64,000 nucleotides of DNA from Sphingobium boeckii (lineage in GTDB: Bacteria > Pseudomonadota > Alphaproteobacteria > Sphingomonadales > Sphingomonadaceae), in assembly GCF_014199215.1 (NCBI RefSeq), contig NZ_JACIJC010000005.1, positions 248,001-312,000 of the forward strand. Reading direction: 5' to 3'. Below are positions 1,028 through 3,810 of this stretch, piece after piece. The notes under the pieces are model-generated. The model ran no database searches and was not told where the DNA came from. It saw only the letters and a list, made by a program, of their open reading frames with translations. Made by a program: the position numbers and the translations under genes. Each line of letters opens with the position of its first letter. Positions within the stretch are counted from its first letter, which is position 1.

Positions 1028-1408
1028 TTAGCGCAGGCTGTCGATCTCGTTAGCGAGGCTGGTGTTGCGGCTGGTGTAATACAGCTCGACATCAGCCAGG
1101 CGGCGATCGATGTCGCGGAATTTGGAGCGGACATCGCGGGTGGTGCGCGCCGGAGACTGGCGCACGCCCTGCCAGAATTTGGCATCCTCGGGATCGTTAT
1201 ACAGGCCGTAAGGCCTGGGATTGGCCACCCAGGCGGTCGCGACATAAGCGATCAGCGTCCAGGGAAAGCCCCCGAGAAGCGTGAGGAGCACCGCGCCGAC
1301 GCGGACCCAGGTGACATCCACCCCGGTATAATCGGCGATGCCGGAGCAGACGCCCTTCCATTTGGCATTCTGCTTGTCGAGGTAGAAATTGGTGCGGCTT
1401 GCGGACAT
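1028..1408 (-). CDS. pspC: Phage shock protein C
   Basis: A 126-aa protein with the PspC domain at residues 5-65: F-Y-L-D-K-Q-N-A-K-W-K-G-V-C-S-G-I-A-D-Y, then a hydrophobic segment around residues 37-62. The C-terminal half (R-S-K-F-R-D-I-D-R-R-L-A-D-V-E) is a predicted coiled coil, as in proteobacterial PspC. PspC is an inner-membrane sensor that responds to secretin mislocalisation or loss of proton motive force and recruits PspA. CAGGGAG lies about 10 nt before the ATG. The gene is 36 nt downstream of pspB in the same operon. Confidence 0.94.
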   Translation of the reverse strand: MSASRTNFYLDKQNAKWKGVCSGIADYTGVDVTWVRVGAVLLTLLGGFPWTLIAYVATAWVANPRPYGLYNDPEDAKFWQGVRQSPARTTRDVRSKFRDIDRRLADVELYYTSRNTSLANEIDSLR

Positions 1409-1444: not shown

Positions 1445-1705
1445 TTAGTGGCGGTTGTCGATCCTGGGGGCGGGGGCATTCAGATCCCCCGCTTTCCAGT
1501 TCGGATTGTCGATCGTCATGATCCGCTCGATGGTATTGAGCCGGTCGTCGAGCCGCCGTGCGGTGTCGTGCAGCTCGTCGAGCAGATTTTCATCCTCCCG
1601 CGTGATGCCGCCGGCGCGCTTCCACTGGGTGACATAGTGAAGGATCAGCCAGGGCATTCCGATGAAGATCGAGACGATGGCGATGAGCGGGATCAGATTG
1701 TCCAT
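1445..1705 (-). CDS. pspB: Phage shock protein B
   Basis: An 86-aa protein: N-terminal TM helix (M-D-N-L-I-P-L-I-A-I-V-S-I-F), then W-L-I-L-H-Y and a charged coiled coil (L-L-D-E-L-H-D-T-A-R-R-L-D-D-R-L). This is the standard PspB layout. PspB works with PspC at the inner membrane to release PspA from PspF under envelope stress. The start is 4 nt after the pspA stop, with AGGAGGG upstream, so the two genes are probably co-translated. Confidence 0.93.
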   Translation of the reverse strand: MDNLIPLIAIVSIFIGMPWLILHYVTQWKRAGGITREDENLLDELHDTARRLDDRLNTIERIMTIDNPNWKAGDLNAPAPRIDNRH

Positions 1706-1709
1706 GATC

Positions 1710-2381
1710 TCAGCCCTCCTGGCCGGCGGCCTTGGCCTTCATCGCTGCCAGTTCGGCATCGACCCGCTCATTGGAGCGCAGCTCGGCAATCTCTTCCTCA
1801 AGCGTCTTGCCGGGGGCGCCCAGCGCCAGCGCATCGGCGCGGCCCTCGGCCAGATCGGCGCGGCGTTCGAGCAGTTCGAAGCGCGAGAAAGCGTCTTCCA
1901 CCTTTTGCCCGGCATAGGCTTCGCGGACCTTGGCGCGGTTATGCGCGCTTTCAAGACGGGTCTGGATCGAATTCTGGCGGGCGCGGGCCTCACGCATCTT
2001 GCCCTGGAGCTTGGCGATATCTTCTTCCGAAGCGCGCAGCGCATCGTCCAGCACCTGGATTTCGCCCTGAAGCTGATCCGACATGTCGGCCGCCTTCTGC
2101 TTTTCGACCAGTGCGGCCTTGGCCAGATCCTCACGATCCTTGGACAGCGCCAGATGGGCCTTTTCGGTCCAGCTTTCCTGAAGCTTGTCCAGCTTCACGA
2201 TATGGCGGCGCATTTCCTTCTGGTCCGCGATGGTGCGGGCGGCGGAGGCGCGCACTTCGATCAGCGTCTCTTCCATTTCCAGAATAATCATCCGGATCAT
2301 CTTTGCCGGATCTTCCGCCTTGTCGAGCAGGTCGGTCATGTTGGCGGCGATGATGTCACGGGTGCGAGAGAAAATTCCCAT
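1710..2381 (-). CDS. pspA: Phage shock protein A
   Basis: A 223-aa protein matching PspA/Vipp1 length. It starts M-G-I-F-S-R-T-R-D-I-I, the amphipathic membrane-binding helix. D-P-A-K-M-I-R-M-I-I follows, then a long coiled coil over most of the chain (A-S-E-E-D-I-A-K-L-Q-G-K-M-R). In unstressed cells PspA binds and inhibits PspF; under stress it oligomerises on the inner membrane and limits proton leakage. AGGAG sits before the ATG. It is the second gene of the minus-strand operon, after the 49-aa peptide gene. Confidence 0.97.
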   Translation of the reverse strand: MGIFSRTRDIIAANMTDLLDKAEDPAKMIRMIILEMEETLIEVRASAARTIADQKEMRRHIVKLDKLQESWTEKAHLALSKDREDLAKAALVEKQKAADMSDQLQGEIQVLDDALRASEEDIAKLQGKMREARARQNSIQTRLESAHNRAKVREAYAGQKVEDAFSRFELLERRADLAEGRADALALGAPGKTLEEEIAELRSNERVDAELAAMKAKAAGQEG

Positions 2382-2465
2382 ATTGGCTACTCCTGAAACG
2401 GTCTGGTCGGGAAGGGGTGCCGGGGCGGAAGCAAGGGGAAATTCCGCCCCGGCTGGGGGATGTCG

Positions 2466-2615
2466 TCAGGCGAGGGGCCGGACGACGGGTGAAGGGGTAT
2501 GGCCGTCCGCAGCCTTGGCCGGGGCCACCGCGCTCAGCACGCAGGTGGTGCTGAAAAGGATGGTGCAGACGATGGCGGTAAAGGTCTGGCTGAACTTGCT
2601 GCTGGTGTTGATCAT
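2466..2615 (-). CDS. Small exported protein, first gene of the psp operon
   Basis: A 49-aa protein from the ATG at 2615, preceded by CAGGGAG. A longer reading from 2720 would run through the sigma-54 promoter and is rejected. It has a basic N-terminus (N-T-S-S-K-F), a hydrophobic stretch (T-F-T-A-I-V-C-T-I-L-F-S-T-T-C-V-L) and A-P-A-K-A-A-D, which looks like signal peptidase site A-K-A. Cleavage would leave a mature peptide of about 14 residues. It could instead be a membrane-anchored peptide. It lies between the promoter and pspA, so it should be strongly induced by PspF. I know no function for it. Confidence 0.75.
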   Translation of the reverse strand: MINTSSKFSQTFTAIVCTILFSTTCVLSAVAPAKAADGHTPSPVVRPLA

Positions 2616-2676
2616 CGTGGTAACTCCCTGAAACCTTGAATGGTGCGCTGCTTCATCAGCAGCTTGTCTTTTGCTT

Positions 2677-2692
2677 TGCAGGGGGCGTGCCA
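2677..2692 (-). promoter_or_regulatory. Sigma-54 (-24/-12) promoter of the psp operon
   Basis: Read on the minus strand, the site is TGGCACGCCCCCTGCA. The consensus is TGGCACG-N4-TTGCW, so 15 of 16 positions agree, including the invariant GG and GC. It lies 62 nt upstream of the 49-aa gene and faces the psp operon. The divergent gene is pspF, the enhancer-binding activator of this promoter class. PspF sites would be expected between here and 2793; I could not define them. Confidence 0.92.
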
Positions 2693-2793
2693 ATCCGCGG
2701 AAATGGCGGGAATCTGTCATTTTTAATCCAGTCCAACCTCGATCAAGCGATTTTTCCTTGCCAAAAAATAGGAAATAATCCTAAGATTTGGGA

Positions 2794-3810
2794 ATGGATC
2801 GCGAAAATCATTTCATCGGTCAATCGACCGCCTTTCTGGACTCGGTCGAGCGTGCCAGCCGCGCCGCCGCGCTCAACCGGCCGGTGCTGGTGATCGGCGA
2901 ACGCGGCACGGGCAAGGAGCTGGTGGCCGAGCGTCTCCACCGCCTGAGCCCGCGCTGGGATGGCCCCTTGGTCACGATGAATTGCGCGGCGCTGCCGGAG
3001 ACGTTGATCGAGGCTGAATTGTTCGGGCATGAAGCGGGCGCGTTCACCGGCGCGACCCGGGCGCGGCAGGGGCGGTTCGAGGAAGCGGATGGCGGGACGC
3101 TGTTTCTGGACGAACTGGCGACGCTTTCGGCTTCCGCGCAGGAGCGGCTGCTCCGCGCGGTCGAATATGGCGAGGTGACGCGGATCGGCTCCAACAAGGC
3201 GATCCGCGTGGATATCCGCATCGTGGCAGCCACCAACGAGCATCTGCCCGGCCTGGTCGATCAAGGGAAATTCCGCGCCGATCTTCTGGACCGGCTGAGT
3301 TTCGAAGTGGTCACGCTGCCGCCGCTGCGCAATCGCGAGGGTGACGTGCCCGTGCTGGCGGATCATTTCGGACGGCGCATGGCCTCTGAACTGGGATGGC
3401 CCTATTGGCCGGGCTTTACCGAGGATGCCGCCGAGGCGCTGCTCGCGCATCCCTGGCCGGGCAATGTCCGCGAATTGCGCAATGTAGTCGAGCGCGCAGT
3501 CTATCGCTGGGATGATCCCGAACGCCCGGTGGCCGAGATCGTGTTCGATCCCTTCGCCTCGCCCTGGCGGCCCGAGGCGGCTGCGGTCGAAGACAAGGGC
3601 GCGCCGGTCGTCCCAGCGGCGGCCGCCGTGCCACCGGCCGCGGCGGTGACGGATGTTACGGATTTCAAGCAGGCGGTGGATGCGCATGAGCGCATGATCC
3701 TGGAAGGTGCCCTGGCGCGCAGCCGCTACAATCAGCGCGCCGCCGCCAAGAGCCTGAATCTCAGCTATGATCAGCTTCGCCACGCCTTGAGACGGCACGA
3801 TCTGCTCTGA
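2794..3810 (+). CDS. pspF: PspF, sigma-54-dependent activator of the psp operon
   Basis: 338 aa from the ATG at 2794; an in-frame TTG lies 6 nt upstream. The AAA+ domain has Walker A G-E-R-G-T-G-K-E, the sigma-54-contacting loop G-A-F-T-G-A, Walker B (G-G-T-L-F-L-D-E-L) and the W-P-G-N-V-R-E-L-R-N motif. A C-terminal Fis-type HTH (Y-N-Q-R-A-A-A-K-S-L-N-L-S-Y-D-Q-L) binds DNA. There is no N-terminal receiver domain, as in true PspF. It activates the divergent sigma-54 promoter at 2677-2692 and is held off by PspA. Confidence 0.96.
   Translation: MDRENHFIGQSTAFLDSVERASRAAALNRPVLVIGERGTGKELVAERLHRLSPRWDGPLVTMNCAALPETLIEAELFGHEAGAFTGATRARQGRFEEADGGTLFLDELATLSASAQERLLRAVEYGEVTRIGSNKAIRVDIRIVAATNEHLPGLVDQGKFRADLLDRLSFEVVTLPPLRNREGDVPVLADHFGRRMASELGWPYWPGFTEDAAEALLAHPWPGNVRELRNVVERAVYRWDDPERPVAEIVFDPFASPWRPEAAAVEDKGAPVVPAAAAVPPAAAVTDVTDFKQAVDAHERMILEGALARSRYNQRAAAKSLNLSYDQLRHALRRHDLL

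Follow-up and report, generated by a model that had tools for sequence, protein, structure and literature searches.

What is an open-reading frame of 49 amino acids (aa) doing at the head of the psp operon of Sphingobium boeckii, between the sigma-54 promoter and pspA, in one of the most intensively studied responses to envelope stress? The locus lies in a 64,000 nucleotide stretch of the genome (the window), in which pspA, pspB, pspC and pspF each pass their NCBIfam equivalog cut-offs. Its features, in window coordinates, are as follows:

1028 to 1408, minus strand: pspC (TIGR02978, 124.2 bits, above cut-off).
1445 to 1705, minus strand: pspB (TIGR02976, 80.8 bits, above cut-off).
1710 to 2381, minus strand: pspA (TIGR02977, 266.7 bits, above cut-off).
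2419 to 2453, minus strand: RNA hairpin with a 12-bp stem, GCCGGGGCGGAA/TTCCGCCCCGGC, and the loop TTTCCCCTTGC, its base 12 nt past the micro-protein stop codon.
2466 to 2615, minus strand: micro-protein gene, first gene of the psp operon; a conserved ORF in a fixed position, with purifying selection and charge asymmetry.
2624 to 2630, minus strand: Shine-Dalgarno (SD) site CAGGGAG, 8 nt 5' of the micro-protein ATG, read from the sequence.
2677 to 2692, minus strand: sigma-54 promoter TGGCACGCCCCCTGCA, a TGGCA-type −24/−12 site, with a predicted transcript start ca. 50 nt 5' of the micro-protein ATG.
2794 to 3810, plus strand: pspF, the divergent sigma-54 activator (TIGR02974, 484 bits, above cut-off).

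A first-pass annotation of the window had proposed that a 49-aa gene with its own CAGGGAG site stands between the sigma-54 promoter and pspA as an extra first gene compared with the classical psp operon, and this description held in each part. The ORF runs on the minus strand from a start codon at 2615–2613 to a stop codon at 2468–2466 and encodes MINTSSKFSQTFTAIVCTILFSTTCVLSAVAPAKAADGHTPSPVVRPLA, the CAGGGAG site is at 2630–2624, and a gene in this position behind the sigma-54 promoter, missing from the classical operon, is kept across the Sphingomonadaceae. The product has one predicted membrane span (ca. residues 13–31, N-in/C-out) and the tail VVRPLA; the chain stops ~15–20 residues past the span, and does not carry the TonB_C domain of the long forms described below. 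Pfam-A and NCBIfam held no family covering the short forms, and neither the micro-protein nor its relatives matched PspB, PspD or PspG. RpoN is encoded in the S. boeckii genome, and with its −24/−12 promoter and adjoining pspF the micro-protein gene appears to belong to the PspF/sigma-54 regulon. A TGGCA-type −24/−12 site was present in all informative pspF-pspA loci of the Sphingomonadaceae, with the predicted start 22–78 nt 5' of the ORF. By eye, an inverted repeat (TAGGA-AATAA-TCCTA, window 2769–2783) between the sigma-54 promoter and pspF is a candidate PspF binding site. At the other end of the operon, 3' of pspC, two small ORFs on the minus strand (664–915 and 397–630) encode PspB-like membrane/coiled-coil proteins with weak or no profile matches; passages of PMC11237479 report PspB duplicates in psp operons.

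When the 49-aa protein was used to query 299 genomes of the family, matches were found in 33. Apart from L026, every locus fetched from this search lies directly 5' of pspA, and nearly all of them fall in the pspF-pspA gap. L026 is no relative of the micro-protein, as it encodes an S53-type peptidase whose signal peptide is similar, and a second match in the S. boeckii genome (L002) is a chance overlap within another gene. The closest relatives among named genome records are from Sphingomonas, including S. cavernae and S. colocasiae (the same genus group as the window), and 20 of 20 matches in such records adjoin psp genes. PspA itself was found in 280 of the 299 genomes, and 100 further pspA upstream regions were fetched as an added sample. 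The pspF and pspA genes were divergent in all 126 loci having both, and an ORF was present in the slot before pspA in 127 of 138 informative Sphingomonadaceae loci, comprising 102 short forms (36–75 aa), 23 long forms (150–178 aa), one run-on (L009) and one ORF overlapping pspA (L028). The slot was empty in the other 11 loci, in ten of which the gap is no longer than 242 bp. That an SD-like site is seen 5' of the ORF throughout the family follows from the rule used to select these ORFs. We then applied a strict rule to gaps of at least 350 bp, under which an ATG with an SD had to open a correctly spaced hydrophobic ORF, 36 aa or longer, with its stop before pspA. Such an ORF was present in 115 of 125 family loci vs. 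0.2% of dinucleotide shuffles and 4.8% of reverse-strand controls. The search of related psp loci suggested by the first-pass annotation thus returned a conserved reading frame, far beyond chance, and the micro-protein ORF is a genuine conserved gene. In L009 (G276) the micro-protein frame continues in-frame into pspA with no stop, for which a fusion and a sequence error are both possible; we dropped it as a gene-fusion argument, as such a fusion would export PspA and the frame may be in error.

Purifying selection, the other comparison proposed for this ORF, was found in six of six groups. Micro-protein statistics are optimistic because related sequences were treated as independent; on this basis pooled pN/pS was 0.63 in the window genus (bootstrap interval 0.44–0.90) and 0.30–0.61 in five other groups of relatives, with the interval below 1 in all six. 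The constraint is moderate, as the window-genus value is much higher than that of pspA, which is far more constrained. Beyond the span and tail the sequence is only modestly conserved, and within the tail the middle part is unconserved. The membrane span and the last residues are the constant features of the family. The final residue is Ala in 81 of 101 distinct short forms (Ala frequency in tails 21%), 47 of which end in Leu-Ala, and the tail is kept with mixed synonymous codons, so the constraint acts on the protein. The N-terminal flank of the span is more positive than the C-terminal flank in 98% of the 101 forms (K+R density 0.143 vs. 0.037), and an N-in, C-out orientation is therefore predicted. 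By sequence, members of the family resemble membrane proteins with one span, N-in/C-out.

The long forms (150–178 aa) carry a TonB-C-like domain after the span (PF03544, e-values down to 5.7e-8). They are intermingled with the short forms on a PspF tree, with at least 12 label changes, three of them forced by well-supported branches, in what is a quick version of the tree with many weak forks and with L009 mislabelled as long. Owing to this intermingling we consider that the TonB-C-like domain was lost or gained several times whilst the N-terminal segment was kept. The long form of Zymomonas is ZMO1062, to which a published ZMO1062 qPCR primer matches exactly. Like the window gene, it has a sigma-54 site and occupies the slot between pspF (ZMO1061) and pspA (ZMO1063), at an equal distance to pspF (slot and pspA co-induction: PMC3495753, PMC8237431, PMC8645129); unlike the short form, it is 172 aa long, with the TonB-C-like domain and without the short tail. 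Published induction data in the family are for this long-form homologue only, ZMO1062 being raised together with pspA at 45 °C (log2 2.33 and 2.9; PMC8237431). Its label “putative phage shock protein pspD” is unjustified, as its matches are to TonB_C and none are to PspD.

Relocated copies came to light in genomes without the ORF at pspA, and a PspC-domain search in 94 genomes led to 57 extra pspC loci away from pspA. A small, SD-led, single-span ORF lies 5' of pspC in 55 of these 57 (shuffled control 0.2%), and a sigma-54-like site is present in 56. In the DNA retrieved for the 57 loci we detected neither pspA nor pspB nor pspF, though several of these stretches reach only ~150 bp beyond pspC. 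In S. boeckii the second unit consists, in order, of TGGCACGCTCCCTGCA, CAGGGAG, MTFNLDALQRAAFSLVGALFLATVFVGSAVVPSETVVAVAPVA and a 61-aa PspC; the search of its own genome with the 49-aa protein missed this copy because it has diverged. Six loci (L301, L216, L292, L293, L295 and L296) have at least two tandem micro-protein ORFs before the lone pspC, probably three in L301. A profile of the operon-head proteins scored the second-unit set at a median of 15 bits (reversed sequences 0.3; hhalign 96%), and by this sequence comparison the two sets of micro-proteins are related. The second-unit proteins are also under purifying selection (pN/pS 0.38–0.71). Two neighbours are constant in both units, namely pspC and the sigma-54 promoter. 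The window gene shares the features that define the family: a short SD-led ORF, one N-in-biased span, a sigma-54 promoter and pspC in the unit.

We propose that the gene encodes an inner-membrane micro-protein of the PspF/sigma-54 regulon which probably acts with PspC in the membrane. A role as membrane partner of PspC appears the best supported, as judged from gene neighbourhood, because the sigma-54 promoter and pspC are the neighbours kept in both units. The known PspB–PspC membrane complex, which signals and counteracts secretin toxicity (PMC5596341), also favours this reading, since PspC stands without a detected PspB in the second unit. The suggestion in the first-pass annotation of a small PspC ligand thereby gains strong gene-neighbourhood support, in that related micro-proteins sit with a lone pspC behind a second sigma-54 promoter. 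Once PspF is active, the micro-protein would be expressed from the leading gene of the psp operon, and would cross the inner membrane once, with a cytoplasmic N terminus and a short periplasmic tail whose last residue is usually alanine or else one that is small or hydrophobic. The second sigma-54 unit would make a related micro-protein and a lone PspC. In each setting the micro-protein may pair with the membrane segment of PspC and so hold, stabilise or tune it, and in the PspB-less second unit it may fill a place comparable to that of PspB. In a bolder form, held tentatively as a little short of probable, the micro-protein, under sigma-54 control, would be an overlooked universal part of the Sphingomonadaceae Psp response and an obligate membrane partner of PspC, both at the psp head and in a second unit free of PspA, PspB and linked PspF, and the PspC branch could act alone. 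Conservation, selection, promoter, topology signal, pspC linkage and hairpin covariation are established here at the level of sequence. Several observations sit poorly with a PspC partner: the TonB-C-like long forms misfit a purely intramembrane role, the main-operon micro-protein adjoins pspA, not pspC, so PspA could equally be the partner there, the modest conservation beyond span and tail picks out no contact surface, and the constraint in the window genus is moderate.

In the gap that separates pspA from the micro-protein gene, the hairpin is GC-rich, has a C-rich loop and, lacking a U-tract, is not a typical terminator. A stem of at least 9 bp was found at 64% of the loci with a short form and at 83% of those with a long form vs. 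11–13% of shuffles, and in 72% of stem-bearing loci the hairpin begins 5–20 nt past the stop codon. In an alignment of 23 sequences, picked for having the stem, both-side changes occurred at six of 11 pairs. The exact stem pattern has a single copy in the S. boeckii genome, and the leader had no match in Rfam. A probable role of this hairpin is to control how much micro-protein message there is relative to PspA message.

By analogy with LiaI and LiaH, the micro-protein could instead anchor or recruit PspA at the membrane, the pspC neighbourhood being secondary. The ORF is directly 5' of pspA in nearly all loci, four genomes of group g78 carry it before a second pspA, and there is a precedent in LiaI, described in passages of PMC9239133 as the membrane anchor of LiaH. 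We nevertheless consider this rather unlikely, as PspA is not the constant neighbour: 55 of the 57 second units pair the ORF with pspC and no detectable pspA, and ten loci have pspA near the promoter without the ORF. Less likely still is that the peptide itself is of no account, and that translation of the short ORF together with the hairpin controls pspA, by attenuation, stalling or the monitoring of Sec or membrane insertion. The fixed place behind the promoter, the covarying hairpin close to the stop codon and the unrelated small ORFs that occupy the slot in other lineages are all consistent with such a leader. Against it are amino-acid constraint with synonymous change in both loci, the tail kept with mixed codons and the tandem duplicates of the gene; no comparable GC-rich hairpin was seen on reading the S. 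boeckii second unit, and at ~49 aa the chain would be too short for its signal to engage Sec during stalling at the end of the ORF. We rank an arrest leader of the SecM/VemP type low, as length and amino-acid constraint argue against it.

The first-pass annotation had read the protein as a secretion signal with a very short mature part, possibly a stress-signalling peptide, and neither proposal gained support from comparison with the family. An exported peptide would require that a signal peptide is cleaved and that a mature part of ~12 residues acts outside the cytoplasm. In the window protein, APAKA-AD at the end of the hydrophobic stretch is plausible as a site for signal peptidase, and cleavage in S. 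boeckii itself is possible. However, AxA-like sites are no commoner in the family's tails (85%) than in shuffled ones (81%), forms of 33–39 aa end at or just past the hydrophobic segment with little or nothing to release, and the constant features are the span and last residues rather than the mid-tail. A cleaved signal peptide is thus not a common feature of the family, and we regard a signalling peptide as very improbable. The idea that the short form is a passive leftover, the decayed N-terminus of a longer TonB-C-domain protein, draws on the slot and N-terminal segment shared by long and short forms and on their repeated switching on the PspF tree. It is hardly credible, being largely refuted by pN/pS values below 1, whilst the conserved tail specific to the short forms, the duplication and the second sigma-54 locus also speak against it. 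We retain the PspC partner as our preferred reading.

Several known proteins resemble this putative PspC partner in part. PspB, too, is small, spans the inner membrane once, is encoded in the psp operon and works with PspC, but no sequence similarity to it was found, and it is a separate gene of the main operon that went undetected in the second units. PspG and PspD of E. coli are likewise small, extra members of the PspF/sigma-54 regulon; E. coli PspG has its own separate sigma-54 unit, in which it is alone, whereas the second unit of the Sphingomonadaceae pairs the micro-protein with PspC. LiaI of Bacillus subtilis, from a different phylum and regulated by LiaRS, is a small, strongly stress-induced membrane protein whose gene accompanies that of the PspA homologue LiaH, which LiaI anchors. 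The main-text passages of two large surveys of Psp gene neighbourhoods (PMC9239133 and PMC11237479) make no mention of the gene, probably because ORFs of 33–60 aa are easily missed. The family looks previously undescribed, and seems to be a standard component of bacterial membrane-stress responses that has gone unnoticed. A micro-protein tied to PspC would provide a handle on how PspC senses and responds, and on its role apart from PspA, and the second sigma-54 unit would set the response of the Sphingomonadaceae, a large family of ecological and industrial importance, apart from the E. coli model.

Other arrangements were seen around pspA. In the four g78 genomes (L199–L202), all of one genus, the pspF-linked pspA is without the micro-protein ORF, which is found 5' of a second pspA-pspC pair, where no recognisable sigma-54 site was found; this placement also favours a link with pspC. 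Other Sphingomonadales families (L152–L164) have, in the slot behind the sigma-54 promoter and before pspA, a small ORF of a different, soluble kind, often of the pattern MN.L..L..., whose C-terminus is rich in arginine and strongly basic. A third type (46–74 aa), with a C-terminal membrane segment W..F.AG...G..L, is present 5' of pspA in other Alphaproteobacteria (L168, L169, L171, L172 and L174).
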